This document shows positions 7,896 to 25,005 of a stretch of DNA of 35,958 nucleotides, in pieces (the first letter of the stretch is position 1; each line of letters opens with the position of its first letter). A model generated the notes under the pieces. It was not told where the DNA came from. It made no database searches and saw only the letters and a list, made by a program, of their open reading frames with translations. The position numbers and the translations under genes are program-made. Origin of the DNA: a virus; IMG/VR virus record IMGVR_UViG_3300028800_000216, positions 1 through 35,958 of that record; one strand, 5' to 3'.

Positions 7896-10106
7896 ATGGC
7901 TGAGACTCGTAAATCTATAGTATTTCAAGCACGTTTTGACATGTCTGAATTGCCCCAGGCCGTAAAAAGCATGCAAAGGCAAATGGAGCAAATGAATACG
8001 GGTACGCGCATGGCTCAGCAGGGCATGGGCGGAGTTATACCCAAGCCAGATGATATTCAGAAAAGTAAAACTGCCTTAATGCAGTTCATTCGAGAACAGG
8101 CGCAGCAACAAGAACGGCTCCTTGGTCTTATCAATAAACAGGCTGACAAAGTTAGCATGCTAAGTAACATTGATAAAAATTCCTTGAAAGATGAAAAAGA
8201 AAAAGAAAACGTAATTAATAGACAAATTCGTGCCAAAGAAAGACTTTTGGGCTTAGAAAGTGCATATGATTCTAGACAGAAAGTTTTAGGTCAAGCATTA
8301 GACGTCTCCGGAGGAGGACAATTAGGTGGAGGCAAAACCGTCAACGAATTGCTTTCTGGAGCCGCTAAACGATTTGTCATGCCCGCAGTTGTCTCTGCAA
8401 TAGTTGGCGCTACAGCTAAAGCTATAACTCAATATGCGGCATTACCAAGAGAGATAATGACCGCCACGGGCGCGGCAACGCAAGGGCTGATTGGTACCCC
8501 ATTACAAAATGTACAAACAGATTTAATTAAAACAATGGCTTTTAAAAAGGAATGGGGAGAATCCTTATCGTTGGCCTCTCAAGAAAGAGAAAGAGCGAAC
8601 TTTTTAGGAGCAGCCCGTCTATTTTCTGCAAAAGGATTGGTGGGTCGGTTTGGTAGTGACTTATCGGGTATAATGGATTTTATTTCTCCTGGGACTGGTT
8701 CTGCAACCGTGGGACGCCTAGTAAATCCTTATGAGCAGGGATATCAAGCTGAACAAACTCAAATGCAAGCCCAACGTGCACAAGAGGTTTATGCCGCTAA
8801 ACTACAAAGCGATCCAGCAAAAATGGCAGCTATTAATAAGTTCTCTCAAAATTACATGAGAGATTTGGCAGCTCAGCGGGCGATGGGCTTGTCAGATGAT
8901 CAGTATTACGGTCGTGGTGGTTTTCAAGAAAGATTTAACAAAGGTGGATTTAACGAAGAGCTAGGTCTCGGTATGGCCGGACAAATTCAATCTGCCGGTG
9001 GCTCTACTAGAGGGGCAGCAGGACTATCTCTCCTCGGCTTGCAGGCACAAAGAGGCCTTGATCTAACTAATGCGGGGAGTATTTTAGGAAAGATAAGTGG
9101 TACAGCCGGCGGAGCAGGAGCTTCAGAACAAATATTTAGAAAATTAATGGAAGAATCTGTTAGGGCGGGATTAGATAAGAGTGAATTTAGAGAAGAACAA
9201 AGACGTTTTACAGATGCGGCCTCTGACATTTTGGCAGGTACGGGTGTAAAAACTGCGGCCGATGCCGCCATGGTATTGTCTGGGTTTACTAAATTTTTAG
9301 GCGGAGAATCCACTGTTCGTGGAATTCAAGGTGCAGTAGGAGCCTTTGAGCAAGTACAAGGTCTTACTTCTCAAACCAGTGGTCGTGGCGGAGCCATGCA
9401 AATGGCTAGTTTTATGAGAAATCCTAGGTTACGTAGATTAGGCGCCGCTGGATACGGAGAACTAATGAGAATGCCTGAAAAGGATATGGTTGCTTCTAAT
9501 GAGGATATTATAGGAGCAGCAGCAGAAATTGGTATGGCACCAGAAAAGTTAGCAACAACTCTTAAGCAAATGAAAAGAAATGATATGTTGTTGACCTTAG
9601 GTCTTGATCCAATGGAAATAAAGGAGTTTGCAGATTCTGAAGAAGGAAAAGCCTTTAGGGCAAGCGGTGGAAGATCCACTGGAATGTTGAGCAGGAAGCA
9701 TTTGGCCGTATGGAGAAAAATTCAAAAACAAACTCAATTTGGAACAGACTATAATGGCCCACAGGAGCAGGCAGCCTTAAATTTAGGTATTTTAGGTGGG
9801 GAGGGCGGACCTTCAACCGGTCTAGGGGCTATTCCAGGGGCCTCTAGAAGGGCTGATATTACTGTAGCTGCATCTGGACAAGTAGCTCAAGAGTTTCTAG
9901 AAAACTTTAGAGAATTTAGCAAAGCCATTACCCCCTCTACAGAAGCAGTTGCTGATTGGACAAAACAATTGATAATGTCTGCTACGGTGTTGCGATACAC
10001 CGCCGCTGGGAATCAAGCTGCAGCTTTGAAAGCCTTATCTGAAGCTAATGCTAAAAATGCTACTAATGGTGGCCAACCACAGGTAACCACTCCTTCTTCT
10101 GAGTAA
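7896..10106 (+). CDS. Probable tail tape-measure-type structural protein, 736 residues
   Basis: The product opens MAETRKSIVFQARFDMSELP and has a long Gln/Met/Lys-rich helical region at about residues 18-135 with coiled-coil character. A hydrophobic stretch follows near 160-182 (RFVMPAVVSAIVGATAKA), and then long Ala/Gly/Gln-rich helical segments. This composition, the membrane-like segment, and its place directly upstream of hub and spike genes are typical of tape-measure proteins. These span the tail tube and help eject DNA. At 736 residues it is short for the class. No conserved domain is certain, so another internal tail or virion protein is possible. GGAG upstream of ATG 7896 supports the start. 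Confidence 0.5.
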   Translation: MAETRKSIVFQARFDMSELPQAVKSMQRQMEQMNTGTRMAQQGMGGVIPKPDDIQKSKTALMQFIREQAQQQERLLGLINKQADKVSMLSNIDKNSLKDEKEKENVINRQIRAKERLLGLESAYDSRQKVLGQALDVSGGGQLGGGKTVNELLSGAAKRFVMPAVVSAIVGATAKAITQYAALPREIMTATGAATQGLIGTPLQNVQTDLIKTMAFKKEWGESLSLASQERERANFLGAARLFSAKGLVGRFGSDLSGIMDFISPGTGSATVGRLVNPYEQGYQAEQTQMQAQRAQEVYAAKLQSDPAKMAAINKFSQNYMRDLAAQRAMGLSDDQYYGRGGFQERFNKGGFNEELGLGMAGQIQSAGGSTRGAAGLSLLGLQAQRGLDLTNAGSILGKISGTAGGAGASEQIFRKLMEESVRAGLDKSEFREEQRRFTDAASDILAGTGVKTAADAAMVLSGFTKFLGGESTVRGIQGAVGAFEQVQGLTSQTSGRGGAMQMASFMRNPRLRRLGAAGYGELMRMPEKDMVASNEDIIGAAAEIGMAPEKLATTLKQMKRNDMLLTLGLDPMEIKEFADSEEGKAFRASGGRSTGMLSRKHLAVWRKIQKQTQFGTDYNGPQEQAALNLGILGGEGGPSTGLGAIPGASRRADITVAASGQVAQEFLENFREFSKAITPSTEAVADWTKQLIMSATVLRYTAAGNQAAALKALSEANAKNATNGGQPQVTTPSSE

Positions 10107-10111
10107 TATGT

Positions 10112-12127
10112 ATGTCTAACACTAAAGCGTACACATATTATATAGGACCACAGTCTAATCCACAAGAGTCTGCTAGTCCCACAGTTTCTGGTTCCTTGTC
10201 TGGCGCCGCTGCAGGCGCCGCCATCGGAGTAGGTTCTAGAGAAATTGGATTAATCAGTCAAACCAGTCCCACGTGGGTTCTTACTTTTGTTCGTTGGCAA
10301 TATCGTGATACCTTACGCACCCCTACTTCTGCACCATCCTCAGTACGCGATCCATTAATAGTTCAAAGTGATTGCATAAGCGTTACCACTACCTTTAATA
10401 AAAATACGTTAACCCATAATATGACCGCATTGTTGCTAGAAACAGATACTAATTATGCAGACGCTATACATCCGGGTGATTTTGTTTTTGTTAACATTTT
10501 AAATTGGGAATCAGACGCTGAGGATGTAGCAATTAAAGCTTCCAAACAGCTTCCCATCAATGAACAAGATGATGGTTTTAAGGGATTTTATAAGATTCAA
10601 GGTGTTAGAAAACTTGCCATAGTAGATCCACAAACTGGTATAAAAACTGTCGCTATAAAAATAGATGGTTTTGCATTTACAGAATTTAATAATACTATTT
10701 ATTTTAATCCCAATCTAATATTGCCCAAATTATTGGGCAATCAAGCACTTTTCATTAATAATATATCAGCAGCGTGGTCTCAGCTGATTAGTATGGCAGG
10801 AAAACCATATCTTCAAGAAATTCTTGCTTTTTTGATTCAAAGTTTAATAGGTTCTGGGGTTAACCCACAAGCACAACAGGCTAACGGTTTAGTTGTTAGT
10901 CCTAATATACATTTCCAAATGCCAATTTTGGTTAGTAGACTTTTAGGATTGACTGTTAATCCTACTATTCCTGCGTTGAATGCCACCAGTTCTGCTACTA
11001 TAGCGGCAAAAGATGTTTATAAATATTTATTTGGTATTCAACAATATTCCAGCGGGGCAAATCAAAAACTGCAAACTGGAATGAATCCTTCTAATTTAGA
11101 AAAATCTCAAAGATATCCTAATTTTCATTATACTACTCAGCCGTGTCCAGGAAATACTATTCTCAAGCCAGAATATTGGAATCAAGTAACATTGTGGTCT
11201 ATTTTAAATCAATACACTAATGCTCCAATAAATGAATTGTTTAGTTCTCTAAAAATAGACCACGATACTGGTAGGGTATTGCCCACTATTGTATTTAGAC
11301 AGATTCCCTTTACTTCCGAAGATTTTGCTTCCCAAATTCTTGGTGTAGGATTTAATGGTAGTGAGATAAAGTCAAGCACAGGTTCCATTCCTAGTGGTTC
11401 ATTTCCAGTAACCCAATTTTTAACATTGCCGAGATGGAAGATAGGTTCTGAATCAGTTTTTAATACCGATCTTGGTACCGATGAAGCTGCACGAGTAAAT
11501 TTTGTGCAGTATTACGCAAAGTCCACATTTGACAAACAGGGCACTGATATTTCTAATGAAACTGCAAGTGGAAATTATATTTTTGATCAAAAAGATGTTA
11601 ATAGGAGCGGCTTACGTCCTATTGTAGTTCAAAATCAATTTGAAGATCTTCCTATTAATACAACAAAATATGCCAAAATATGGGCATATATTTATGGAGA
11701 CGCCGTTATAGGCGGTCACCTAAAGATTAATGGTACGATAGAAAGTATAGGAATAGTAGAACCAATTGCTATCGGGGATAATTTAGAATTTGATAATACT
11801 GTTTTTCATATTGAGCAGATAACGCATAATGCGTCTATCAATAGAAGCAATGGAATGAAGACTTTTAGAACCACACTAAGTCTTAGCCATGGTGTAAACG
11901 TGAACAGTAGTGCGGTTGGTACAGTATACAGTCAAATGAATTATCCAGATGCATACCAGGATAGGGCCGTTGATTATCAAAATGAACAGATTTTACCAGG
12001 TGTTTCAGACAGTCAGGATACTACTAACAGGCCCAATAATGTTGATCAGCCACATTTACAAGATGTAGCATTCCCGCAACCCAATACAATCCCTAATAGA
12101 AATGGAGGCGGAAATAATAATGGATAA
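10112..12127 (+). CDS. Probable baseplate hub protein (gp27/gpD-like), 671 residues
   Basis: After a low-complexity N-terminus (residues 15-40, Ser/Gly/Ala-rich), the product shows a strand-rich region. It includes SDCISVTTTFNKNTLTHNM near 88-106 and a HPGDFVFVNILNW segment near 120. GFYKIQGVRK and VAIKIDGFAF segments follow. Protein layouts of this sort, with a test for strands around a bounded beta-barrel, are usual in tail hub proteins. The downstream gene is a gpV-like spike, the normal partner at the tail tip. The C-terminal 60 residues are Asn/Gln/Pro-rich and likely flexible. The call is by context and pattern. The start has no clear Shine-Dalgarno sequence. The stop overlaps the spike gene by eight bases. 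Confidence 0.6.
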   Translation: MSNTKAYTYYIGPQSNPQESASPTVSGSLSGAAAGAAIGVGSREIGLISQTSPTWVLTFVRWQYRDTLRTPTSAPSSVRDPLIVQSDCISVTTTFNKNTLTHNMTALLLETDTNYADAIHPGDFVFVNILNWESDAEDVAIKASKQLPINEQDDGFKGFYKIQGVRKLAIVDPQTGIKTVAIKIDGFAFTEFNNTIYFNPNLILPKLLGNQALFINNISAAWSQLISMAGKPYLQEILAFLIQSLIGSGVNPQAQQANGLVVSPNIHFQMPILVSRLLGLTVNPTIPALNATSSATIAAKDVYKYLFGIQQYSSGANQKLQTGMNPSNLEKSQRYPNFHYTTQPCPGNTILKPEYWNQVTLWSILNQYTNAPINELFSSLKIDHDTGRVLPTIVFRQIPFTSEDFASQILGVGFNGSEIKSSTGSIPSGSFPVTQFLTLPRWKIGSESVFNTDLGTDEAARVNFVQYYAKSTFDKQGTDISNETASGNYIFDQKDVNRSGLRPIVVQNQFEDLPINTTKYAKIWAYIYGDAVIGGHLKINGTIESIGIVEPIAIGDNLEFDNTVFHIEQITHNASINRSNGMKTFRTTLSLSHGVNVNSSAVGTVYSQMNYPDAYQDRAVDYQNEQILPGVSDSQDTTNRPNNVDQPHLQDVAFPQPNTIPNRNGGGNNNG

Positions 12128-13022
12128 TTTTTTACAGAATGGCGCAGTATTGCCACATGGATTGATAGGAGTAAACCAACAATCGGCAATGGCTGGATTC
12201 AATAAGAGTTATAGAAACACACAGCTAAGAATGGGCATAGTGATTTCTGCTTATGCAATTTCCGACACAAACAATGTCACCAAACTCACTACTGAATATG
12301 ACGTCTTAGTCTTTGAACAAAATGAAAATCGTGGTTCTAGTATAATGACCTATAAAAACTGCATAGTAGCAGAGGGTGTGGGTTCTATTCCAGATTTTTT
12401 TGAAAAAACGTTGCGCGTGAGGGCGGGATCTCCGACCCCAATAAACACGTCTGGTCAGAATGGTGCGATAGTATTGATTCAATGTCTAGATGGTATGTCT
12501 GATAAAGCCATTATTATTGGGGCAATTACTCATCCAGATAGGGCTACTACTTTAGTAAATACTCAACCATATTTGCAGGGCGAATATAATGGACTAAATG
12601 TTACGATTGATAATGATGGTAGTGCAACGCTCACCTTTAAGGGGGCCACGGATAACAATGGTAAACAGGTAGATAGTTCACAGGGAAATACCGTAGTTCA
12701 GATAAAAACCGACGGTTCCTTTCAAATTAATCATTCTACCATTACCTTCACGCTTGATAAAAGTGGGGTGGCTACATTGACTACTAAGGGAGATGTTAAT
12801 GTCAATTCGTCTGGCAAAGTAGCGATTAGTTCTACCGGTGATACAGATCTTACTGTTGGTGGAGACTGTAAGGCAACGGTATCTGGAAAATTGGTTGCTA
12901 CTGCATCAGAGATTGATTTGAATGGGGATGCCGGAATGGTTGTCACCACAGTGACGAGTCCCCTAATCGATCTGATCTATGGAACTTTACAGCCTGGGGT
13001 TCCTACCGTAAAGGCCGGATAG
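12120..13022 (+). CDS. Baseplate spike protein (gpV/gp45-like) with beta-helical tail
   Basis: The start ATG 12120 is favoured because GGAGG lies at 12104-12108; the in-frame ATG at 12102 lacks a binding site. The 300-residue product has an N-terminal half compatible with an OB-fold: QLRMGIVISAYAI and YDVLVFEQNE, then NGAIVLIQCLDGM and AIIIGAITHPDR. The C-terminal half is a regular series of short beta strands (SATLTFKG, GSFQINHS, VATLTTKGDVNVNSSGKVAIS). This is the pattern of the trimeric spike that closes the tail tube and pierces the outer membrane. The DGSATLTFKG-type repeats fit a triangular beta-helix. It overlaps the hub gene's end, as expected for a hub/spike pair. Confidence 0.78.
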   Translation: MDNFLQNGAVLPHGLIGVNQQSAMAGFNKSYRNTQLRMGIVISAYAISDTNNVTKLTTEYDVLVFEQNENRGSSIMTYKNCIVAEGVGSIPDFFEKTLRVRAGSPTPINTSGQNGAIVLIQCLDGMSDKAIIIGAITHPDRATTLVNTQPYLQGEYNGLNVTIDNDGSATLTFKGATDNNGKQVDSSQGNTVVQIKTDGSFQINHSTITFTLDKSGVATLTTKGDVNVNSSGKVAISSTGDTDLTVGGDCKATVSGKLVATASEIDLNGDAGMVVTTVTSPLIDLIYGTLQPGVPTVKAG

Positions 13023-13026
13023 TGAT

Positions 13027-13842
13027 ATGAAAATAATAAAAACATATTATGATAAAGAAAAGGGTTATACGTTAGTCGAATATGTATGTTCTAACTGTAA
13101 AGAACATAAAATTATTAGAAAGGAAAAGCTTAAAAAGAAAAAATATGATTTGTGCAATAGTTGCTACAATAAATCAGATTATAGAAAGATAACGGCACAA
13201 AAAATAGTAAGCAATAGGAGAAGTTTTAAGGGTAAGAAAAATCCAAATTTTAAGGGATTAATTTCATTCACATGTCCTTGCGGTAATCCGTTTCAAGTAG
13301 AGCAATCTAGAAAAGATACGGCAAAATATTGCTCTAATGATTGTAGACATATGCACAACGTGCTTCAAAAAACAAAATTGTCAGAAAGAAATAAGATTTC
13401 TGCTGTATCTGGCAAAGACAATCCACTATATACATCAATAGAATTAGCTTGTAGATGTGGAAATAAGTTTACGGTAAATCCATATAGAATCAAAAGATCT
13501 AAAAATGTTTACTGTTCTAGAAAATGTTCTGATCGATTCAAAATAGTAATTTCTAAACATATTTTATATAAAGACATAAAGTTTCGTTCTAGTTGGGAAG
13601 TTAAATATGCTCAATACTTAGATTCTCTAGGCTATTCATGGAAATATGAGCCAGAAGCCTTTGAAACCCCAGTTGGCTATTATACCCCCGATTTTTGGGT
13701 TCAAGACATAAACAGTTATGTAGAGGTTAAGGGATTCTTTAGAGATCAAAATGCTAAAGAAAAATTTGATTATTTTGGCACTAAATACCCAATAGTGTTG
13801 GTAAATAAAGAATGGTTTAAAGCCCATTCTATAGGGATTTAA
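13027..13842 (+). CDS. Free-standing homing-type nuclease: zinc-ribbon/NUMOD3-like repeats plus PD-(D/E)XK
   Basis: The 271-residue product has three cysteine-rich units: CSNCKEH with CNSCYNK (residues 21-47), CPCGNPF with CSNDCRHMH (81-110), and CRCGNKF with CSRKCSD (141-170). Between them are GKKNPNFKG and GKDNPLY, which resemble the NUMOD3 DNA-binding motif. The C-terminal 85 residues form a PD-(D/E)XK nuclease core: RSSWEVKYAQYL, then YYTPDFWV and YVEVKGFF, giving E, D, E and K at expected positions. Such genes are mobile endonucleases. It lies between two tail genes, four bases after one stop and abutting the next start. It is more AT-rich and Lys-rich than its neighbours, which is consistent with insertion. 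Confidence 0.8.
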   Translation: MKIIKTYYDKEKGYTLVEYVCSNCKEHKIIRKEKLKKKKYDLCNSCYNKSDYRKITAQKIVSNRRSFKGKKNPNFKGLISFTCPCGNPFQVEQSRKDTAKYCSNDCRHMHNVLQKTKLSERNKISAVSGKDNPLYTSIELACRCGNKFTVNPYRIKRSKNVYCSRKCSDRFKIVISKHILYKDIKFRSSWEVKYAQYLDSLGYSWKYEPEAFETPVGYYTPDFWVQDINSYVEVKGFFRDQNAKEKFDYFGTKYPIVLVNKEWFKAHSIGI

Positions 13843-14439
13843 ATGCCACTATCAGGAGAAATTTTAGGCGGACTGATCGCAGCAAATTTGGCCGCAGACG
13901 GAGCTATTGGACCCAAACTAACTTCTTTTTCTTTAGCCGTTGGTACTGGGATCGTAGAAGCATTGGAAGGCATAGCGTTTGTTACAACAGACGTTGGCTT
14001 TGGTCCTATTCCTGTACCGCCCAGCACTGGCACCGGTATCGGTATTATAGGGCTTATTCCATCTGCCATGGCAGCATTGGCTCTTTCTACAATGAGTAGT
14101 CGGGGCCCAAAAGCGCCCACCTTCATGTTGGCAATAATGGACGCAGTGTCTGTGTATTTAGCCACCGCTGCGACATTAAATAGCATAAATCCTTTGGTAA
14201 GCATAGGCACTGCCACCATAACACCCGGCAGTTTTGTCGTTACCGTACCAGAAATGGAAGCTACTATTTTGGCAGCACTGCAGTCGGACGGAGCAATGGG
14301 CCCGCAATTATCCAATTTGTCTTTATCTATAGCTACCGGTGTGGTAGGTGGATTGTTGACTGGAACTGGAATTTTAATAATAGCTGGTTTACCTAGCCTA
14401 GTTCCTGCTACTGGGGCAGGCACTGGAATATTAACTTAG
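13843..14439 (+). CDS. Hydrophobic Gly/Ala-rich protein made of three repeats, 198 residues
   Basis: The product is almost free of charged residues and is rich in Gly, Ala, Ile, Leu, Pro and Thr. I see three related units at about residues 11-50, 75-115 and 141-178, each with a GP followed about eight residues on by a small-residue/Leu helix: AIGPKLTSFSLAVGTGI, SRGPKAPTFMLAIMDAV and AMGPQLSNLSLSIATGV. After each come Pro/Gly/Thr-rich linkers. No signal peptide is clear. Placed between spike and wedge genes, it is probably a virion or tail-tip part, or it acts at the membrane. I recognise no family. The start abuts the nuclease stop, with AGGGATTT upstream. Confidence 0.6.
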   Translation: MPLSGEILGGLIAANLAADGAIGPKLTSFSLAVGTGIVEALEGIAFVTTDVGFGPIPVPPSTGTGIGIIGLIPSAMAALALSTMSSRGPKAPTFMLAIMDAVSVYLATAATLNSINPLVSIGTATITPGSFVVTVPEMEATILAALQSDGAMGPQLSNLSLSIATGVVGGLLTGTGILIIAGLPSLVPATGAGTGILT

Positions 14440-14445
14440 GTTTTT

Positions 14446-14985
14446 ATGGACTTTAGAACTATTGCAGAATTTATGTACCCATATTGGATTTTAGGCGCCC
14501 TGGTAATGATGGCTGTAGTATGCGCAGGTCAAAGGCGTCTTTTGCGTATCGAGCTTAAGCCCATTTTGAAATGGTGTTTATGTTTAATTTTAATTACAGC
14601 AATAAGACTATTTTTGCTTAATACATTCGACTATTCAGGCCTTTTTGGAAAACCCACCGGTTTGATGATGATACCTTGGGTCGCATCCTTCACGGTGTTC
14701 TGGGAGGACGCGTGTCATGGCTTACCATTAGTAATTTTAGGCAGTTTAATAGGCACTGAGCGACGATGGGCACGTGCTGTTAACAAGCTTGCCATGATCC
14801 TTGTTTCCGTGTCTTTTGGATTAGGACATCTCTACCAGGGACCTTTGGTGGCATTGATTCTATCTTTTTACGTATCATACTCCGTTAAATATGGTAAGAA
14901 ATACGGTTTCGGTACTGTAATTATATGTCACACGCTTTTCGATCTGGTGACTTTTCTCTTTATCAAGTATTTTATGGGAGCATAA
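14446..14985 (+). CDS. CPBP-like intramembrane protease (CAAX-protease fold), 179 residues
   Basis: The product has about five hydrophobic segments (near 12-27, 41-58, 74-86, 114-130 and 133-150), plus a C-terminal one near 155-175. The motifs of the CPBP/ABI glutamic protease family are visible in order: E87-D88 in FWEDACHG (motif 1, normally EExxxR), FGLGH at 124-128 (motif 2, FxxxH) and CHTLFD at 161-166 (motif 3, HxxxN/D, H162 and D166). The R of motif 1 is replaced by H91. Family members cleave in or near membranes, and some confer immunity in bacteria. In a phage baseplate operon its substrate is unknown; virion maturation or envelope targets are both open. It starts seven bases after the preceding stop. 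Confidence 0.65.
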   Translation: MDFRTIAEFMYPYWILGALVMMAVVCAGQRRLLRIELKPILKWCLCLILITAIRLFLLNTFDYSGLFGKPTGLMMIPWVASFTVFWEDACHGLPLVILGSLIGTERRWARAVNKLAMILVSVSFGLGHLYQGPLVALILSFYVSYSVKYGKKYGFGTVIICHTLFDLVTFLFIKYFMGA

Positions 14986-15037: not shown

Positions 15038-17662
15038 ATGTCATCAATTGGAGACTCTTTTAATTTAGGCGTACCGCAGGCAGTGCAGTCTATCAAGAAT
15101 GCAGCCGGTATTGTTGCGTCCGTTAATAACAATAAGACTAGTTATAATGCAGCCTTACCTTGGGTAACTAGTAATATAAGTAGTACTTTTTTTCAATCTA
15201 TTAGTATACAACCTGAAAGATGGGATCAATTATTCCCATATAGACTGTTAGTTATTGATTCTTTAACCAATAAGGTCGTTTCAGGGCCTCAAGGCGGTGC
15301 AACTGCCGCCGTACCAACTATTGCTGTAGCTCCCGGTACGTCAAGCGCTATTGTATCGTTTACCGCATCTAGTTCCTGGATTTTCCAGTTACCAATCTCT
15401 CCTCAACAGTTAACCATTTCAGAGCAATTTGCTATTCAGACCTCCGCCACACTACGTGGTATTCTAGAGGAACACTCTGGTTCTAGATTTAAGACTATAA
15501 ATGCTCAAGGCACAATGGGAGTGTGGCCCTCCAGATCTAATGTTACTCAAGGCGCACCAAGTACTCCCGGAATTCTTCAATCAGTTTTTGGTGGCACTAT
15601 CTCTGCGGTTGGTGGTTTAGTTGGACAGGTATCCAACGTTATCAATACCGCTACTACTGGTGCTGCAGCGAATAAACCAGTTTCTCTAAGGCCAGAAACC
15701 TCTTTGTTTGGACAAACCAGTACTGGCTACTATCAAGCGTTAAAATTGCAACAGTTTTTAGAACAATATGTAGAAGCAAAAAGAGATCCTGCAAATTCTA
15801 GTTGGCGTTTAGTTTTTGATATTCCTAAACAGAATCAATCATATGTTGTTAGCCCAGTAACTTATGATTGGGTTCAAAACGCAAATCAACCGATGAAAAT
15901 AGATTTTAGATTTCAATTGAAAGCATGGAGACGAATTCAATTAGACCAAACAACCACTCCAGCTTCTACGAATAATCAACCATTGACTGCAGGTATTTTG
16001 CAGAGAGTTTTAAATACGCTTACAGAAGCACAGCAAGCGTTAAGTGGTGCTACCAATCTAATTAGCGCAGTACGTTCTGATGTAAACAATATTTTTAATA
16101 TATTTAGGCAATCCACACTTTTTGTTAAGGGATTGGCCGGTGTAGCTGCTACTACGGCAGATTTACCTACAGAGGTTGCATCGGGTTTTCAAAGTGCCAT
16201 AGCCACCTCGATTAACACCTCTTCGTCCTCTATTTTGGCAAACGTAAGCGATCAGCAAACTGTAGCATCAGTTAAGGCTATTGCCAATATGTCAAATCAA
16301 TCTGAGGGTTTGAGCTTATCTGCAGTTTCTAGTGGACAATTGGGCGCTTCTGCTGCTTCTTATCAATCTCTTAATCCGGTACAAAACGTACTTTCTAATC
16401 CCAATGCCAATTATCTTTTGTTTGCCCAAGTACCGGTTAGTTCACTTTCTTTATCTAATGCGCAAAATGCTACAGTACAAAATGTTCTTAATACGGCTAG
16501 CCAAACGACCATTGCACAATTAAAAGCATACAGGGCAACCGTTTTACAGCTAGCCCTTCAGTTGTCCAATAGTTTTGGCACTGGCTCTGCATATTATAAC
16601 AAATTATTTGGATTACCGGCCCCCGCAGTAAGCTACGTTCCAATCACCGTAGATCAATATGAACTTTTAGATACTTTGTATGAATCGCTGGTAGCCTATG
16701 ATATTTTAACAGCTTCCACTCAGATTGACGATCAATCGATAGTAGACAGCATGTCATACGTTGCTGGATTGGCAGCGACCGCCGATATAGCTTTTACAGT
16801 TCCAACTAGCAAAGTGTTAGTGCCAGTACCGTATGGATTAACAATTGAAGCAATTGCTGCTAGATATTTAGGCGATCCAGAATTGTGGCTAGAAATTGCC
16901 ACCCTTAACGGACTGAGCGAACCCTATATAGATGAAATAGGATTTCAACTTCCATTGCTATCGAATGCTATCGCTAGACAGGTAGTGGTAAGTAGTGACT
17001 ACGATTTATATATTGGACAAACTGTAACCCTTATCGGCGCAGGACAAACTTCTTCTTCTAGAACCATCTTAAAGATTGAGCAACTATCTACCACTAATTT
17101 CCTTTTGACTTTAGATGGACTACCCAACTTAGATAATTTCACTACAGCAATAGGCTCGTACATACAGGTATATTTGCCCGGTACCGTAAATAGTCAACAG
17201 AAGATTTTTATCCCTAGCGATTTGCCAGTTCCGACCGTGTCCAATATCATTCCGCCTTCAGCTACTTCCGGCGATGCTCTGACAGCATTAAGTAAAGTTG
17301 ATTGGCTCTTATCAGATGGTGGCGATCTGGTATTAAATCAATACGGTGATTTCAGGTATTCTTCTGGAATTACTAATATAATTCAAGCTTTGCGTATTAA
17401 ATTCGGAACTCAAGCAGGAACAGTGCTCACACACCCCAATTTTGGGTTAAATGTGCGCGTAGGTTCTATTAGCTCTGAAGTGCAGCTGCAACAGCTTTAT
17501 AACTCTATAAATGAAATGATAATTCAAGATCCTAGATTTCAGTATGTTTCTAATTTGCAGATTACACTCAATGGACCAACACTAGGTATTAATTTAGCTG
17601 TACAATTGCCTAATAATACTGGGGTTTTCCCTGTTTCATTTGCATTAACGACGCCAACTTAG
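15038..17662 (+). CDS. Baseplate wedge-type protein: N-terminal contact domain, LysM-like motif, gp25-like C-terminus
   Basis: The 874-residue product combines pieces that are separate genes in many phages. Residues about 45-180 hold a strand-rich region (PERWDQLFPYRLLVID, then WIFQLPISPQQLTISEQFA) typical of tail proteins that contact the tube. Residues about 590-640 hold a LysM-like unit (PYGLTIEAIAARYLGDPELWLEIA, then LNGL, as separate runs) as in XkdP/gp53-like proteins. The last 120 residues resemble the gp25/W family (LLSDGGDLVLNQYGDF, then IIQALRIKFGTQ). In T4 gp25 is the central wedge connector and gp53 carries a LysM motif. The fusion here would place both in one wedge part. Upstream is a special leader; the start lacks a clear binding site. 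Confidence 0.7.
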   Translation: MSSIGDSFNLGVPQAVQSIKNAAGIVASVNNNKTSYNAALPWVTSNISSTFFQSISIQPERWDQLFPYRLLVIDSLTNKVVSGPQGGATAAVPTIAVAPGTSSAIVSFTASSSWIFQLPISPQQLTISEQFAIQTSATLRGILEEHSGSRFKTINAQGTMGVWPSRSNVTQGAPSTPGILQSVFGGTISAVGGLVGQVSNVINTATTGAAANKPVSLRPETSLFGQTSTGYYQALKLQQFLEQYVEAKRDPANSSWRLVFDIPKQNQSYVVSPVTYDWVQNANQPMKIDFRFQLKAWRRIQLDQTTTPASTNNQPLTAGILQRVLNTLTEAQQALSGATNLISAVRSDVNNIFNIFRQSTLFVKGLAGVAATTADLPTEVASGFQSAIATSINTSSSSILANVSDQQTVASVKAIANMSNQSEGLSLSAVSSGQLGASAASYQSLNPVQNVLSNPNANYLLFAQVPVSSLSLSNAQNATVQNVLNTASQTTIAQLKAYRATVLQLALQLSNSFGTGSAYYNKLFGLPAPAVSYVPITVDQYELLDTLYESLVAYDILTASTQIDDQSIVDSMSYVAGLAATADIAFTVPTSKVLVPVPYGLTIEAIAARYLGDPELWLEIATLNGLSEPYIDEIGFQLPLLSNAIARQVVVSSDYDLYIGQTVTLIGAGQTSSSRTILKIEQLSTTNFLLTLDGLPNLDNFTTAIGSYIQVYLPGTVNSQQKIFIPSDLPVPTVSNIIPPSATSGDALTALSKVDWLLSDGGDLVLNQYGDFRYSSGITNIIQALRIKFGTQAGTVLTHPNFGLNVRVGSISSEVQLQQLYNSINEMIIQDPRFQYVSNLQITLNGPTLGINLAVQLPNNTGVFPVSFALTTPT

Positions 17663-17703: not shown

Positions 17704-20700
17704 ATGGCAACTCCAACCCAAAATATCCCCAATATTCAGTCATATGAGCAGTATCTCAGTGATATGCTTAGCAGTTATGCGGCTGCTCTTGGAATTAATG
17801 ACTTTAATACTGGCTCCATTAACACCTCGTTCTTCGAGGCGGTTGCGCTTACCGCAGCGCGCGCATCGGGTGATCTCCTTCAAACTCTTAATCTTTTTAG
17901 CGTAGATCGTGCTACCGGAGACGCCCTACAGCGCTTGGCCCTTGAATACGGTGTCAATCCGGCACAAGCTCAATCGGCTGGCGGCCTTGTCAATATTATT
18001 GACACTAGTTTTACCAAAATTTCTACTACCATTTACGCCGGAACTCCTGCACCGAATATCGGAGCTACAACTATCAATGTTAGCGACGCCTCTTTATTCC
18101 CAGCTTCTGGGAGCGTGTATTTGGGCCGTGGTACCCCTAATATTGAAGGGCCCATACCTTACTCTATCCCACCGGCAAATGTAGGCTCTTATTGGACCAT
18201 CACCCTTTCTGTGGCAACTACTAAATACCACAATCTGGGTGAAAGTATCATTTTGTCGCAAGGTGGCACCCGTACTATTGCGGCCAACGTAATCGTGGTT
18301 GCCCCTGGTGTTGGTACCAGTCCCGATATCCAATACGGTGTGGTTGCTCAAGCGGTAATTCTAGATGGCGAAACCGAAGTCGATAATGTTCCAGTTACAG
18401 CCCTTCTACCCGGTTCTGCTGGCAATGTACCCGCCGATTCAATAGTAGCATTCGCATCTCCCCCATTTCCCGGAGCATCTGTAATCAATCCCCTACCCTT
18501 CACAACCGGGACAGACAACGCAACGGATCAGCAACTGCGAGTACAAATTAAAAACGCATTAGCGTCACAGGGATTGGGAACTGCAACCGCTGTTGAAGCC
18601 GCACTATTAGGTGCCACCGCCACCGAATCAAGTGGCATTATAGATAGTATTATCAGCGATTCTTTAGTGACTAATACTAATGGCAGTTGCACGGTATATA
18701 TAGACAATGGTACTGGATATGAAGAAACTTCTAATGGGGTTGGCCTAGAATTTATTGTAGATAGCGCATTAGGCGGTGAACAGTTTTTCCAGTTACAAAC
18801 TGGCGGAACTCAAGCGCCGGTTGCACAGGCCTATTTACAAACAGAATTAGCAGAGCCATACGATCTGATAGGTGGCGATACTTTAGCGGTAGTTGTTGGT
18901 GGAATAACGTATCAGCACGTATTTGCCAATGCAGACTTTGCTTCTCCTGGTGCCGCCACTGCCTATGAAGTATCAGCATCTATTAATGCCGACACTGCTT
19001 TGGGATTTGAAGCGAGTACCGCAGGAAATGCGACGTTTGTCATAGTACGAGGAAAACAAGAATCTGGGGAGGATGTAATTTTTACTACTATCCCCACTAC
19101 AAGTGGTAGAAACGCCGCTGTTTTGATGGGATTTCCTACAAGCACAATAGAAACTTTAAGGTTGTACAAAAATGGCACCCCGCTCAGTCAAGATGGAATA
19201 ACGGCTTCGGTATTTACGCAGGCACAACAATTGTGGTCCAACACAATTGCTAATGGGGATACTTTGATTTTGTCTGTAGATGGCACTGCAGCCATTACAT
19301 ACACTATTACAAATGCAGATTTTATTGCTACTGGTCTATATACAAGCGTAAACAATGACAATTCACTCGCTTCCTGGATACAAGTTTTTAATAATATATT
19401 GACCGGAGTCACGGCTACAATAGTTGGCGATCAAATAGAATTGACCAGCAATTTAGGTGCCAATAACAGAGCTAATGTAACCATCAGTCCACTGTCCACC
19501 CTTGTTAATAAGGGCATGTTTTCAGCCACACTTGGATTGTCTTTTCAGGGCGCAGCATCGGATTACACGTTAGACCGCAATACCGCACAGTTTGAATTAG
19601 TTGTTCCCTTAGTGAAAGGAGATCAATTATCGGCTGGAAGTGCTAAAACCGCCGCGTTTGTACAAAGTACAAATTTTTCCAGTAATAGTATCACATTAGC
19701 GTCACCAGCGCATATTTGGATTCTCGTTGATACTGCCGGACAAATCATTCATACTGGTGTTATTGCCAATACAACGATTGCAGTCTCTTTACCCTCAACC
19801 AATATCATTCGGTATACATCCGATGTCCCATCGGCATTTGACAATGTGTTGCCAGGAGATTACATTATAATATGGTCAGCTGAACTTCCGAGCAACGATC
19901 GTCTTGAAGGAAGAGTTCATGCGGTTACTTCTACTACTGTAGATGTGCTAGTTACACCTGCAGAATGGGCCGCAGCAGTAGTTACATCTGTTATCAATCT
20001 ATCTAATGGTTTTGTAATTTTACGAAGCGTTCTTGCACCACAAAGATTTGAGGTTTCCGCAGGCACTCTTACCTTGGACCAAGTAGCTGCACAATTACAA
20101 ACGCAAACCGATGAACTTGTTTTTTCTGTATTTTTAGAAAAATCCTTAGTAATCACTACCAACACAATAGATCCCACCGGCTCTGTTTTAATCGTTACCT
20201 CTGATACACAGGGACAATTTTTACAATTAGCTGATGGCCTTTTTGATAACAGTAAAACTTCATTGATAGCGTTTTATGATAGTCAAGAATTTACCGGCGA
20301 TTTGCCTCTGTTTATACATTCAACATTTTCTATACCAGAATTTGCCAATCCGCCTGATAGTTTTATTGATAATTTAGGAACTACCATAGTGCTAGATCCT
20401 TCAGAGCCCAACAATTTGATTTGTATGCTGCATCCATATGGTGGGATAGATGATGCACAAGATTTTGGAGAATGTCCACAAATTTCCTCTCTTTCCGGCA
20501 ATGCAGTATCTATAGTTCCGCCCTTAACTCCGCCAACTTTGCCAATACCAATGACTCCAGATCCGTATATGCACAGAGTAAGAACTGTGGATCGATTTTA
20601 TGTTGGTAGTCCATTAGAATTTGGATACGGCGATAATTTAATAGCGGTAATCGATGGAAATGTTATTAGTCAAAGCTATACAATTCCGATGTATCGTAAT

Positions 20701-23700
20701 GCTTTGACTAATACAACACTTGTATCAAATTCCACTAATTTTAATGCATACGACGAAGATGCTGGACCAACATCGTCATTTACTACCTATTTTAATAATT
20801 TCAATTTTGCTAACTTCAAAGTTTACATGCAGGCCAAGAAGGTTTTGAAACCTACGCCATCTCAAACTGCCATTCTTTACAGGGCTGAACAGTGGGGCTC
20901 TAGCGGCGAACAAGTTACGGTGGAATACGTTTATCCCACAGGTCCCAATCAACCAATAGGAAGTACGGAAGTCATAGGCTCTACTGTGGCGCTTAGCATC
21001 AATTTAGCCAGCGGTCCCGTGTCTTCCAATTCTATAACTTCTTCTACCAAATGGAATATCGTGGTTACCCATGGAGTGCCGAGCGCAACCATAGATCAGG
21101 TAACTTTTATTTATGCCGGTCAATATACCTTTACAGTCACAGCTGCCAATGCGACTGTGGGCGCCATATACTCTAATAATGGTCAGAATTTCTTAGTTAC
21201 CACCACAATTGCTGGCGGTACGACTCTTGTTACTACTGGATTACAAGGAGCACCCTTAACTTCAGGTACTTTAACTAAAGTAAGTGGTACTGGGGATGCA
21301 ACGATTACTTTTTCTTCTTTCACCTTTACTGGATTTGGAACTGCACCGGCATTGACTTTGTTGGGTGGAGAATACGCTAATATATCTACACAAACAGGGT
21401 TTAACATAGGTAATGCTGGCATTTTTAGAGTGTCTACACAAGCTGGATTTACTCCTACTGCTACAAGTTTTTCTGTGCAAGCGCCCGCTGGCCAAGCCAT
21501 ATCTCAGTCAGGCGTCTCTACCCTAGTAAATGGTGGTATTTTATTATATACAGCTTCGCCTACAACTGCAGCACAAGTAGCAACGTTTGTAAATGCCAAT
21601 CTGGCTTCTTACGTCTCTGCTACGCTGGTAAATGACGGTGGTACGAGTGGCGCAGGTGTTATTGTATTTAGTACTTATGAAGATAGTGCATTTACCTTTA
21701 GCAATGTTCAATTGTTAGACGGGGTCAATTGGATTTTGTCTAGCAATGTGAGCGGATCTCCACAATTCGTTTTTAAATTACCTCTAAGTTTGCCAACCGA
21801 TGTTGGGTACGCCTTTAATAATGGCGAGACATTACGACTAGTTCCTACCACAATGGAACAAGTTTTTCGTTTTATATCCGTACTGGCGGTTACAGGACTT
21901 AGCACCGTTGGAACTATAGAGTTGGTAGACAGGGGAACTAGGCTTGAGCTGGCCACACAAACATTGGGAAGTGCAGGCTCTATACAGATTATTGGCGGTT
22001 CTGCTAATAGTATTAGTCTTCCAGTATTGAATTCTGCTGAAATTATCAATAATGATCTAATAGAAATTTCAGTGGATAGCGTAGCTTCTCATTTTGTAAC
22101 AAGCGATCAATGGTTTAGATTGCAGGCTGCCAACACACAGAAAAAAGTAACCGGTTTTGACTTTAATACCGATGTATCTGTTATTGCAAGCGATCCTACT
22201 ACTGGTGAAGCTACTATCGTAATAAGCAATAGTACGTTGACTCAAAGAAATTTTGGTAGACCAAGAAATATACAAGTGCAAGGCGATACCTTTAGGGTAG
22301 AAAAGCAAGGCAGCTTAGTATGTATCAGTTGGACCGGTATTGGCCCCAATCCAATGTTTGAATCTGCTCTTAACTTTAACGATTCTAGCGGTGGAACTTT
22401 TAATGCCTCACTTATTGCTGGCACCAGCGATGTGCAATTTATTGTTGAAAGTGGCAATGTAAACTTTACCGAACTTTCTATCGGTGATTTTATTACAATT
22501 GCCAATCAGTATATATTTACGGTTACCGCTGCAAATGCAACAGCTGGTGCTATATACTCGAATAACGGTCAACTTTTTACGGTTAGTAATACGATTGTTG
22601 GTGGCACCACCTTGACAACGACTAGTACCGGAATCCCCGCGACTTCAGGTACTTTAACTAAAGTAAGTGGTACTGGGGATGCAACGATTACTTTTTCTTC
22701 TTTCGTTGCTGGCACCAATATATCTGCTAACAATGTAGGCACATTTGCAGTTACTGGAATTTCTGCTAATGGAAAAACCATACAAGTAACCAACCCTGAT
22801 GCTAAAAATCAATTTTCTTCAGGCGGTTTCACATTTACAGGGAATGCTAACTCTGGAGATCAATTTGTCGTTGGGGCTACCACATTAATAGCCGGAACAA
22901 ATTTTGTAATAGGAGCAACGTCCGCCGCTACGGCTGTTAATTTAGCCGCCGCTATCGGTTTATTGCCTAATTTAACAGCTTCTGCAATTGGGTCAACCGT
23001 CACTACCACCGCAACAATACCATCTTATAGTACTTCTTTATCGTATATTCCATTTAGTACTACTCAAGTAACAGTGGGAGCATTTAACGCATTGGCCTTC
23101 TTTTCTGGTAATTTCTCGGCAACTAGCGGAGTATCGGAAGGGGACACCGTTATTTTGGGACCTCCGTTTTCTCCATTGAACCAGGGACAATACAGGGTCA
23201 TACGCGAATACAACAACAGTATTTGGATTCAAAATCCAGACTTTGTGGAAGAAGAAGTTAATCTTTCATACAATCCAGTAAGTCTTGGATTCAACACTAC
23301 TACTGGTTTTAATGTCACCGTAGTCAATGGTTTAATGCACATAGAATGGAATGGCACCGGAACTGCCCCAACTTTAGGAAATGTTATTGCTGGCGATTTC
23401 ACTACACTGGGCACTAATTTTGTATCTGCTAACCAAGGAAGTTTCATGGTGGTAGATTCTAGCGTAGCATTGCCACAAATCACAGAGTTATTCTTACCTA
23501 GTGGTGCTGTATTCGCATTGAGCGGTGCTGGAACCTATTTTACTATATACAGTGCTGGCAACGCACAAAAGTATTACGTTTGGTTCAACGTTAATAGTAC
23601 TAACACTGATCCGGCACCGGGCGGATATACCTCAGGCATACAGGTAGCTATTTTGAGCGGAGATACTTCCACTAACGTAGCAAGCAAAACAGCTCTGGCA

Positions 23701-25005
23701 TTGACTATTTCGGCATTTTCCGTTGTTTCATTGAATAATACGGTAACCATAACGACTGTCAGTGATATAGAAACCAATCCCACAGTTAATGTTAACGTAC
23801 CGCCTCCATTTGAAGCTCTCACATTACAGTCCGGAACTAGGACTTTTATAGAAGTTATTAATCCGGGAGCCGTTGTGGACTCATCTGTAAGTGTAATTCC
23901 AGCTACTTTTACATTTACTGGAAATGCCAATACAGGTGATCAATTTGTTATAGGCGCAAACACGTTAGTTGCTGGAACAGATTTTGTAATCGGTGGGACT
24001 TCTACGACCACCGCTGTTAATTTAGCTGGAGCTATTAATGCTCTCCCAAATTTATTGGCCACTGCTAATGGAACAACGGTAACAGTAATATCAACAGTAT
24101 TGACATATACTCCGGCATTGTCCTATGTTCCATCAAGTACCGCCGAGGTAACCGTAGGAGCTGGCTCTACTTCCGGGATTTTCTTGGGTCATAGACCACA
24201 AATGCAATTTTTCCCATACGACGCTTCTGTTCCTGGAGATTTATTCGTTGTTGCTGGTAATGTTCTTACTCTTGTTAATGCCGGGTCATATCCAATTGTT
24301 CAGGTCCTTAATGCAAATACCGCTATAGTGAAGGGAAATATGGCAAGTATTTCAAACGTAAATTTAGAAAATAATGTCAATTCCGTATATGTGGAAGAGG
24401 GTGTAGCATATTCTGGATATAAACACGTCTATATGGTTAGTGCTGAACCCGGAACTACCACGCAAAGCTTGATTGTATTTGATACTATCGCACAATATGA
24501 TAAGATAAATCCTTCTGCGGGTGTAGAATTGACATCTTTAGCCAAATTGAATTTTAATACTACCTTAAAAAACGGATTAGATGCGTACAGGTACAATACG
24601 GGATTGATAGCAGAGGCTAACAGAATCGTATACGGCGATCCTAGAGATCCCATCACTTATCCTGGTGTAGGCGCTGCAGGAGCAGACATTTTTATAAAGG
24701 CTCCTTTAACGCTCCGAGTCACCATAGCTGTGGATATTAGATTGTTGACCGGTGCCCCGTTTCCTAGCATTGTACAGCAAGTACAGTCTAATGTTACTGC
24801 GCTAATCAATTCTAATCCAGTTGGAAAATCTATAGATATCTCTTCTATAGTAAGCGTTATACGCGCCATACCAGGAATTATTTCTGTGGCCATATCTAGC
24901 CCGCTCTATAGTCCCACAGATGATTTAATCCAGGTAGCCCCCAGTGAAAAAGCATTAGTACTTGATCCAGCTACCGATATTAGCGTATTTCAAATCGGAA
25001 CTTAA
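17704..25005 (+). CDS. Giant baseplate wedge protein, J/gp6-like, 2433 residues
   Basis: The N-terminus (residues 13-85) matches the start of Baseplate J family proteins: FNTGSINTSFFEAVALTA, then FSVDRATGDALQRLALEYGV. A J-core segment, TGTDNATDQQLRVQIKNALA, lies near residues 267-290. The last 110 residues (DIFIKAPLTLRVTIAVDI, then QSNVTALIN and VISVI-like strands) match the C-terminal wedge domain. J-like proteins form the wedge ring that connects hub to fibres in contractile tails. Typical J proteins have 300-600 residues; here about 1,900 residues of beta-rich modules are inserted. They contain two duplicated pairs, at 21121/22507 and 22828/23908. The inserted part may form an outward-facing decoration of the baseplate. 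Start chosen at ATG 17704, the first after the leader. Confidence 0.8.
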   Translation: MATPTQNIPNIQSYEQYLSDMLSSYAAALGINDFNTGSINTSFFEAVALTAARASGDLLQTLNLFSVDRATGDALQRLALEYGVNPAQAQSAGGLVNIIDTSFTKISTTIYAGTPAPNIGATTINVSDASLFPASGSVYLGRGTPNIEGPIPYSIPPANVGSYWTITLSVATTKYHNLGESIILSQGGTRTIAANVIVVAPGVGTSPDIQYGVVAQAVILDGETEVDNVPVTALLPGSAGNVPADSIVAFASPPFPGASVINPLPFTTGTDNATDQQLRVQIKNALASQGLGTATAVEAALLGATATESSGIIDSIISDSLVTNTNGSCTVYIDNGTGYEETSNGVGLEFIVDSALGGEQFFQLQTGGTQAPVAQAYLQTELAEPYDLIGGDTLAVVVGGITYQHVFANADFASPGAATAYEVSASINADTALGFEASTAGNATFVIVRGKQESGEDVIFTTIPTTSGRNAAVLMGFPTSTIETLRLYKNGTPLSQDGITASVFTQAQQLWSNTIANGDTLILSVDGTAAITYTITNADFIATGLYTSVNNDNSLASWIQVFNNILTGVTATIVGDQIELTSNLGANNRANVTISPLSTLVNKGMFSATLGLSFQGAASDYTLDRNTAQFELVVPLVKGDQLSAGSAKTAAFVQSTNFSSNSITLASPAHIWILVDTAGQIIHTGVIANTTIAVSLPSTNIIRYTSDVPSAFDNVLPGDYIIIWSAELPSNDRLEGRVHAVTSTTVDVLVTPAEWAAAVVTSVINLSNGFVILRSVLAPQRFEVSAGTLTLDQVAAQLQTQTDELVFSVFLEKSLVITTNTIDPTGSVLIVTSDTQGQFLQLADGLFDNSKTSLIAFYDSQEFTGDLPLFIHSTFSIPEFANPPDSFIDNLGTTIVLDPSEPNNLICMLHPYGGIDDAQDFGECPQISSLSGNAVSIVPPLTPPTLPIPMTPDPYMHRVRTVDRFYVGSPLEFGYGDNLIAVIDGNVISQSYTIPMYRNALTNTTLVSNSTNFNAYDEDAGPTSSFTTYFNNFNFANFKVYMQAKKVLKPTPSQTAILYRAEQWGSSGEQVTVEYVYPTGPNQPIGSTEVIGSTVALSINLASGPVSSNSITSSTKWNIVVTHGVPSATIDQVTFIYAGQYTFTVTAANATVGAIYSNNGQNFLVTTTIAGGTTLVTTGLQGAPLTSGTLTKVSGTGDATITFSSFTFTGFGTAPALTLLGGEYANISTQTGFNIGNAGIFRVSTQAGFTPTATSFSVQAPAGQAISQSGVSTLVNGGILLYTASPTTAAQVATFVNANLASYVSATLVNDGGTSGAGVIVFSTYEDSAFTFSNVQLLDGVNWILSSNVSGSPQFVFKLPLSLPTDVGYAFNNGETLRLVPTTMEQVFRFISVLAVTGLSTVGTIELVDRGTRLELATQTLGSAGSIQIIGGSANSISLPVLNSAEIINNDLIEISVDSVASHFVTSDQWFRLQAANTQKKVTGFDFNTDVSVIASDPTTGEATIVISNSTLTQRNFGRPRNIQVQGDTFRVEKQGSLVCISWTGIGPNPMFESALNFNDSSGGTFNASLIAGTSDVQFIVESGNVNFTELSIGDFITIANQYIFTVTAANATAGAIYSNNGQLFTVSNTIVGGTTLTTTSTGIPATSGTLTKVSGTGDATITFSSFVAGTNISANNVGTFAVTGISANGKTIQVTNPDAKNQFSSGGFTFTGNANSGDQFVVGATTLIAGTNFVIGATSAATAVNLAAAIGLLPNLTASAIGSTVTTTATIPSYSTSLSYIPFSTTQVTVGAFNALAFFSGNFSATSGVSEGDTVILGPPFSPLNQGQYRVIREYNNSIWIQNPDFVEEEVNLSYNPVSLGFNTTTGFNVTVVNGLMHIEWNGTGTAPTLGNVIAGDFTTLGTNFVSANQGSFMVVDSSVALPQITELFLPSGAVFALSGAGTYFTIYSAGNAQKYYVWFNVNSTNTDPAPGGYTSGIQVAILSGDTSTNVASKTALALTISAFSVVSLNNTVTITTVSDIETNPTVNVNVPPPFEALTLQSGTRTFIEVINPGAVVDSSVSVIPATFTFTGNANTGDQFVIGANTLVAGTDFVIGGTSTTTAVNLAGAINALPNLLATANGTTVTVISTVLTYTPALSYVPSSTAEVTVGAGSTSGIFLGHRPQMQFFPYDASVPGDLFVVAGNVLTLVNAGSYPIVQVLNANTAIVKGNMASISNVNLENNVNSVYVEEGVAYSGYKHVYMVSAEPGTTTQSLIVFDTIAQYDKINPSAGVELTSLAKLNFNTTLKNGLDAYRYNTGLIAEANRIVYGDPRDPITYPGVGAAGADIFIKAPLTLRVTIAVDIRLLTGAPFPSIVQQVQSNVTALINSNPVGKSIDISSIVSVIRAIPGIISVAISSPLYSPTDDLIQVAPSEKALVLDPATDISVFQIGT
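21121..21321 (+). repeat. Module T, copy 1, inside the J-like gene
   Basis: This stretch encodes a 67-residue unit (QYTFTVTAANATVGAIYSNN at its start, ending in FSSF). A 66-residue partner lies at 22507-22704, 461 codons downstream. The final 63 bases (21259-21321) are identical to 22642-22704, encoding TSGTLTKVSGTGDATITFSS plus one more Phe. The earlier part of the unit differs by substitutions and one codon indel. The perfect end suggests recent gene conversion or recent duplication. Confidence 0.9.
22507..22704 (+). repeat. Module T, copy 2, inside the J-like gene
   Basis: This is the partner of 21121-21321 in the same reading frame. Its 63-base end (22642-22704) is identical to 21259-21321 and lies exactly 1,383 bases from it. 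Outside that end the two copies match at the protein level (TVTAANATxGAIYSNNGQ) but differ at many bases. Confidence 0.9.
22828..23082 (+). repeat. Module F, copy A, inside the J-like gene
   Basis: This encodes an 85-residue beta-type module starting FTFTGNANSGDQFVVGATTL and containing TAVNLAAAI and LPNL. A gapless second copy lies at 23908-24162 (360 codons downstream). A more diverged relative lies in the next gene at 26124-26397. The TAVNLAxAINxLPN portion fits a small-residue helix followed by beta strands, a module type frequently seen in large phage tail proteins. Confidence 0.85.
23908..24162 (+). repeat. Module F, copy B, inside the J-like gene
   Basis: This is the gapless 85-residue partner of copy A. 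It starts FTFTGNANTGDQFVIGANTL and shares GTxFVIGxTSxxTAVNLAxAI, LPNL and TVGA. DNA identity is well below protein similarity, so this duplication is older than the 63-base repeat of module T. Confidence 0.85.

Follow-up and report, generated by a model that had tools for sequence, protein, structure and literature searches.

The locus and its source phage

The window, by which we mean the whole 35,958 bases of IMG/VR record IMGVR_UViG_3300028800_000216, is a genome fragment of an uncultured phage. All genes and motifs given below with window coordinates lie on its plus strand. The first tail-protein gene considered here (7896..10106) probably encodes the tape measure; it has no database match, and the assignment comes from its position and its relatives. 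It is followed by the gene for a conserved hub-region baseplate protein (10112..12127) and by that for a gpV/gp5-like tail spike or baseplate assembly protein (12102..13022; PHROG 9992, E 2.3e-6). Then come an HNH/resolvase-like gene with PHROG matches, probably for a homing endonuclease (13027..13842), and an accessory gene for a Gly-rich protein whose fold has no assignment (13843..14439). Immediately 3' of the latter lies the ORF of interest (14446..14985, ATG start), which encodes a 179-aa homologue of CPBP/Rce1-like intramembrane proteases with six predicted membrane helices, hereafter the protease-like protein. Two further baseplate genes are found downstream, one matching PHROG 975 with E 7.5e-21 (15038..17662) and one for a giant baseplate J-like protein of 2433 aa (17704..25005), annotated by position and by synteny with Myxococcus phage Mx1. 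The initial annotation of this DNA had read the ORF as a CPBP-type protease encoded inside a baseplate operon, and this location is borne out by the PHROG matches of the baseplate and spike neighbours and by the loci of related phages.

The nearest annotated relative is Mx1, with 28-30% identity in two baseplate proteins. Its record has the general architecture of the window, including a baseplate J-like protein and GroEL; the baseplate homologues are present in Mx1, and no CPBP gene was found there. The protease-like gene belongs to myovirus-like phages of large size, about 150-177 kb, which form a clade distantly akin to Mx1. A chaperonin resembling GroEL, about 590 aa long, occurs in 15/15 near-complete relatives (e.g. 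G011:163548-165317); in Mx1 it is annotated as GroEL. One relative, L016, is a contig (JALHRR010000011.1, 129 kb) that had been placed in a Saprospiraceae MAG. As it carries this phage module, it probably belongs to a phage, and its placement hints at a Bacteroidota host.

The HNH-type gene of the window is not in the nearest relative, L019. Two other relatives, L050 and L056, have ORFs of about 270-280 aa at the same site, directly after the spike gene. Taken with the HNH gene of the window, these ORFs suggest that homing at the junction downstream of the spike gene is recurrent.

Family membership and predicted structure

Is the ORF product a member of the CPBP family? Its sole meaningful Pfam match is PF02517, with E 1.8e-4 and 22.2 bits, 0.2 below the cut-off of 22.4. 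The homologue on the L001 contig passes the cut-off (23.8 bits), and PF02517 matches at E<=0.1 are found in 19 of 29 diverse homologues, the best with E 3.1e-6. A PF02517 search of the whole L003 contig missed its own copy of the gene, which a family profile recovers, so negatives from a single model are weak. PHROG and defence-system models gave no match to the protease-like protein. Three PHROG families from phages or prophages (26389, 13291 and 28058), which have no function annotation, match a canonical bacterial CPBP protein, and none of them was matched at E<=1 by any of the 12 phage homologues scanned. A search of the cultured-phage collection gave no close relative (tblastn matches had E>=2, that is, noise), and a PDB sequence search with the family profile gave nothing. 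By sequence comparison, then, the phage proteins are a separate and uncatalogued subfamily, with no PHROG family detectable by scan.

An AlphaFold2 model of the window protein, built from 12 homologues, has a mean pLDDT of 90 and a pTM of 0.85. Its membrane-length helices span residues 3-26, 37-60, 85-102, 107-126, 133-153 and 155-176. VIA-align 2 ranked MmRce1 (4cad) first, with Z 7.8 and 160 residues aligned at 5.0 A, and the CPBP protein SpdC (6u0o) second, with Z 7.5, while the next row had 4.9. Foldseek alone gave no match in the PDB at E<=0.001; in a viral structure library, giant-virus CAAX proteases are among the top matches of the model. Since the VIA-align Z is modest (<8), the fold assignment stands on structure and sequence jointly.

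Might the resemblance be due to chance, the ORF encoding an unrelated phage membrane protein with its Glu and His residues in a CPBP-like order? That the window protein alone falls just below the Pfam cut-off, and that Foldseek found nothing in the PDB, could be read in this way. However, its homologues pass or approach the cut-off, the invariant residues described below are those of the motifs, and Rce1 and SpdC take the top structural ranks, so that we consider a coincidence very improbable. The profile matches and the fold ranking together confirm that the product of ORF 14446-14985 is a member of the CPBP (CAAX protease/Rce1) family, as the initial annotation had proposed, in what appears to be a phage-specific subfamily.

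Invariant residues and the question of catalysis

A homologue census of the protease-like gene comprised 47 ORFs, 41 of them distinct and with a median pairwise identity of 28%. Only seven positions, E87, D88, F124, H128, T157, H162 and D166, are invariant in 41/41 distinct homologues. The five motif residues named beforehand (E87, F124, H128, H162 and D166) are all among these seven of 179 positions, for which the chance is 1.4e-8; thus the motif pattern is not accidental. The residues belong to motif 1 (E87-D88, 14704..14709; EDxxxG, canonically EExxxR), motif 2 (F124-x3-H128, 14815..14829) and motif 4 (H162-x3-D166, 14929..14943), and the ED, FxxxH and HxxxD motifs of the initial annotation are all where it had placed them. 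Its further remark that motif 1 has His for Arg was off by one. The position of the Arg is G92 (14719..14721), which is G, V, T, S, A or I across the subfamily and never Arg; the His of the window is residue 91, one before it, where homologues have F, H or Y.

The subfamily as a whole has therefore three fixed departures from the canon: ED for EE, no Arg at 92, and Asp in motif 4. HxxxD occurs also in a bacterial CPBP relative on L017, which has EEVIFR. The incomplete EExxxR is best taken as a fixed variant of the subfamily and not as a ground for exclusion, because the profile match, the fold and the catalytic Glu and His are all there; the CPBP family as catalogued also includes proteins whose motifs diverge (PMC7387801). 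Judged from the sequences, what appears to be new is a phage CPBP subfamily in a tail operon with EDxxx lacking the Arg, FxxxH and HxxxD, CPBP proteins as such being already known. The literature searched describes no CPBP gene in a phage tail operon.

Is the protease-like protein then an active enzyme? In MrtX and MmRce1, the attacking water is bridged by the first Glu and the His of motif 2, and the oxyanion hole is built from HxxxN; the invariant Glu/His set of the phage homologues corresponds to these catalytic residues (PMC11980579). The fold similarity to Rce1 and the invariance of the residues are what a predicted clustering of E87, H128, H162 and D166 rests on. As to topology, loops 1, 3 and 5 carry on average 3.0, 1.8 and 2.1 K/R per protein, and the other loops 1.1 and 0.02. 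By the positive-inside rule we infer that loops 1, 3 and 5 are cytoplasmic, in which case E87 and H128 would lie towards the periplasm. Synonymous sites are saturated in most pairs of homologues, and the two measurable pairs give dN/dS of about 0.13 (a near-identical pair with very few changes) and 0.20.

An alternative is that the protein sits in the inner membrane as a non-proteolytic regulator or scaffold with the CPBP fold, comparable to SpdC or Abx1; it might then, for instance, aid baseplate assembly at the membrane or bind the injection-channel protein of a superinfecting phage. SpdC (LyrA), Abx1 and LnsB are non-proteolytic or non-canonical CPBP proteins with a fold like that of the phage protein, and SpdC is its second-best structural match (Z 7.5). 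CPBP proteins that do not need protease activity are documented (PMC3578759, PMC7387801): Abx1 functions without its conserved catalytic residues (PMC3578759), and SpdC does so without catalytic residues, SpdC and LnsB having drifted at such positions (PMC7387801). The loss of the motif 1 Arg in all members also agrees with a scaffold. However, 41 distinct proteins with a median identity of only 28% have, without exception, the catalytic Glu, the two His and the acidic residue of motif 4; SpdC and LnsB, by contrast, have lost or diverged at their catalytic residues, while the phage proteins keep all except the Arg. We hold a scaffold role to be rather unlikely. Catalysis is favoured because the full Glu/His set is invariant; had the protein only a structural part to play, drift of the kind seen in SpdC and LnsB would be tolerated. 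From the sequences we predict with some confidence that the protease-like protein is catalytically active.

The comparison with known proteases gives both likeness and difference. Rce1/MmRce1 (type II CAAX prenyl endopeptidase, PF02517) shares with the phage protein the fold, the catalytic Glu, FxxxH and the order of HxxxN/D. Unlike it, the phage protein has six helices, is shorter (179 aa, where the Rce1 chain has 250 residues), has EDxxxG for EExxxR and D for N in motif 4, and has no known CAAX substrates. The sorting proteases MrtX/MrtJ of Myxococcota and proteobacteria are also of the CPBP family, the phage active site would be periplasmic as the MrtX model requires, and Myxococcus is the host of the nearest cultured phage that has this baseplate. 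Unlike these enzymes, the phage subfamily has no motif 1 Arg, and its 20 related contigs contain no MYXO-CTERM protein. The MrtJ model was matched weakly by 3/29 phage homologues (best E 0.012). Membership of the myxosortases MrtX/MrtJ is not supported, as the window protein had no model match and a CTERM-tagged partner was not found in the 20 contigs.

Occurrence across related phages

With the hub-region protein as the marker, 69 loci were collected, of which 64, including the window and L016, were usable. The spike gene is in every locus. The protease-like gene is present in 44 of the 64 related baseplate loci, always on the operon strand, and is not in the other 20. Among the 47 copies, 43 are within 1.1 kb of the spike gene and on the same strand. 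In the window the distance is 1.4 kb, as the HNH gene intervenes; L066, L086 and L090 have other inserts, and the copy on the L064 contig is farther downstream. Thus the gene recurs directly after the spike gene and beside the same genes in relatives, in line with the proposal. In the protease-negative loci the neighbouring genes are intact. The near-complete contigs without the gene in the operon have no copy elsewhere, L064 excepted.

Is the gene then a part of the core baseplate? The marker tree requires at least 10 gains or losses of the gene. Mean identity is 29% for the protease-like protein, against 44% for the hub and 41% for the spike, and its distances correlate with those of hub and spike at r 0.62, whereas hub and spike correlate with each other at 0.80. 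This history fits a long-term vertical presence with repeated loss, perhaps with some exchange. The gene is an ancestral yet dispensable accessory and no core part of the baseplate; that it can be dispensed with speaks against a function in a core step of the baseplate. The statement in the initial annotation that such a protease is not a normal baseplate function thus agrees with the third or so of related baseplate operons that lack the gene, their neighbours intact. In L055 a short hydrophobic ORF (L055:7894-8130) stands where its close relative L057 has the protease, and is possibly a decayed copy.

Candidate partners and substrates

The Gly-rich neighbour (13843-14439) had been suggested as a partner on account of its hydrophobic character. 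Its product is hydrophobic in this phage only; the homologues in L003, L010 and L011 have GRAVY 0.1-0.2, and a further homologue is found in L019. The structure model of the product has a pLDDT of 31 and is unusable. In place of the gene there are unrelated proteins in L001, L013/L014 and L023, and it is missing in L008, L009, L012, L015, L016 and L020. A 235-aa family of this neighbour is commoner without the protease (8/20 protease-negative loci) than with it (5/44 positive). With homologues that are not hydrophobic, replaced or absent, and no positive association, the neighbour was rejected as substrate or partner. A 450-aa protein encoded downstream is found in 24/44 protease-positive vs 4/20 negative loci, an association that is phylogenetically confounded.

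No membrane gene family was found to track the protease when near-complete contigs with the gene (9) were compared with those lacking it (6). The MYXO-CTERM tag (TIGR03901) was found in none of 20 related phage contigs, and a phage substrate with this tag was therefore dropped. In 35/64 loci (e.g. L008:10543-10818) there is a gene for a small conserved protein, some 90 aa long, that matched nothing in the databases. It follows the protease gene or, in protease-negative loci, takes the corresponding position; the window is without it. Another frequent gene, seen in 50/64 loci and not in the window, encodes a PhageMetallopep (PF18894) lipoprotein with a HELTHC motif (e.g. L003:11631-12185, minus strand). 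It lies on the opposite strand and, in most relatives, immediately precedes the baseplate gene of the 15038 type, and the L003 copy exceeds the PF18894 cut-off.

Could the enzyme process a phage protein in tail assembly or surface display, with the tape measure, a baseplate part or the lipoprotein metallopeptidase as candidate substrates? Its fixed position in the baseplate operon of divergent phages would be expected if so, and the PF18894 lipoprotein is encoded a few genes away in many relatives. However, about one third of related phages have the same baseplate without the gene, and the structural genes are universal in protease-positive and protease-negative near-complete contigs alike. 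The lipoprotein is not beside the window gene, and its occurrence is independent of the protease-like gene (35/44 with vs 15/20 without). Processing of a phage protein is thus a doubtful reading.

Proposed function

Why should a phage keep such a gene beside its tail genes? Prokaryotic CPBP proteins are common, and few have a known job. Tail-gene adjacency, repeated loss and fast change resemble those of cor, which favours the cutting of a host envelope protein. In unrelated phages the cor gene directly follows tail fibre genes, and relatives not using FhuA do not have it (PMC13164509). The Cor/Llp exclusion genes of T1, N15, phi80 and T5 are, like the phage gene, small envelope-protein genes by tail genes and patchy in relatives. 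Unlike the polytopic membrane protease homologue described here, their products are outer-membrane lipoproteins binding FhuA, and the likeness would be limited to gene position and loss pattern.

We lean, with little more than even confidence, towards a phage CPBP intramembrane glutamyl protease that is a late accessory of the baseplate operon, with exclusion as the leading, unproven option. The protein would be made late, together with the tail proteins, and inserted in the host inner membrane. There E87 and H128 may activate a water while H162 and D166 hold the scissile carbonyl, and a membrane-anchored substrate would be cut near the periplasmic face. The target would most likely be a host envelope or surface-sorted protein, and the purpose might be to block superinfection or to spare the progeny from receptors, as the tail-adjacent Cor/Llp genes do. 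By this analogy, we tentatively propose that an envelope protein of the host is cut late in infection; this reading is ranked first, followed by phage-protein processing and then by a non-proteolytic scaffold. It is conceivable on the same ground, if short of probable, that exclusion is proteolytic and occurs at the inner membrane, host envelope or sorted surface proteins being cut instead of receptors being blocked. Counting against the favoured explanation are the motif 1 Arg missing in every member, the Asp in place of the second Glu, the several CPBP proteins that act without proteolysis, the VIA-align Z below 8, and the negative outcome of the search for a substrate among co-occurring membrane families and MYXO-CTERM-tagged proteins.

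If it is true that host membrane proteins are cut, this would be a new phage route to control of the host envelope. The fixed position, the invariant active site and the natural losses provide matched pairs of phages, one having the gene and the other lacking it, in which its role can be tested directly.

Other peptidases are also encoded in this clade. A subtilase (PF00082) with a signal-peptide-like start is found in 14/15 near-complete contigs (e.g. L135:10562-11332), and a ClpP-like peptidase whose N-terminus is hydrophobic likewise in 14/15 (e.g. L177:17481-18338). As both are near-universal, the clade has several possibly envelope-directed proteases.
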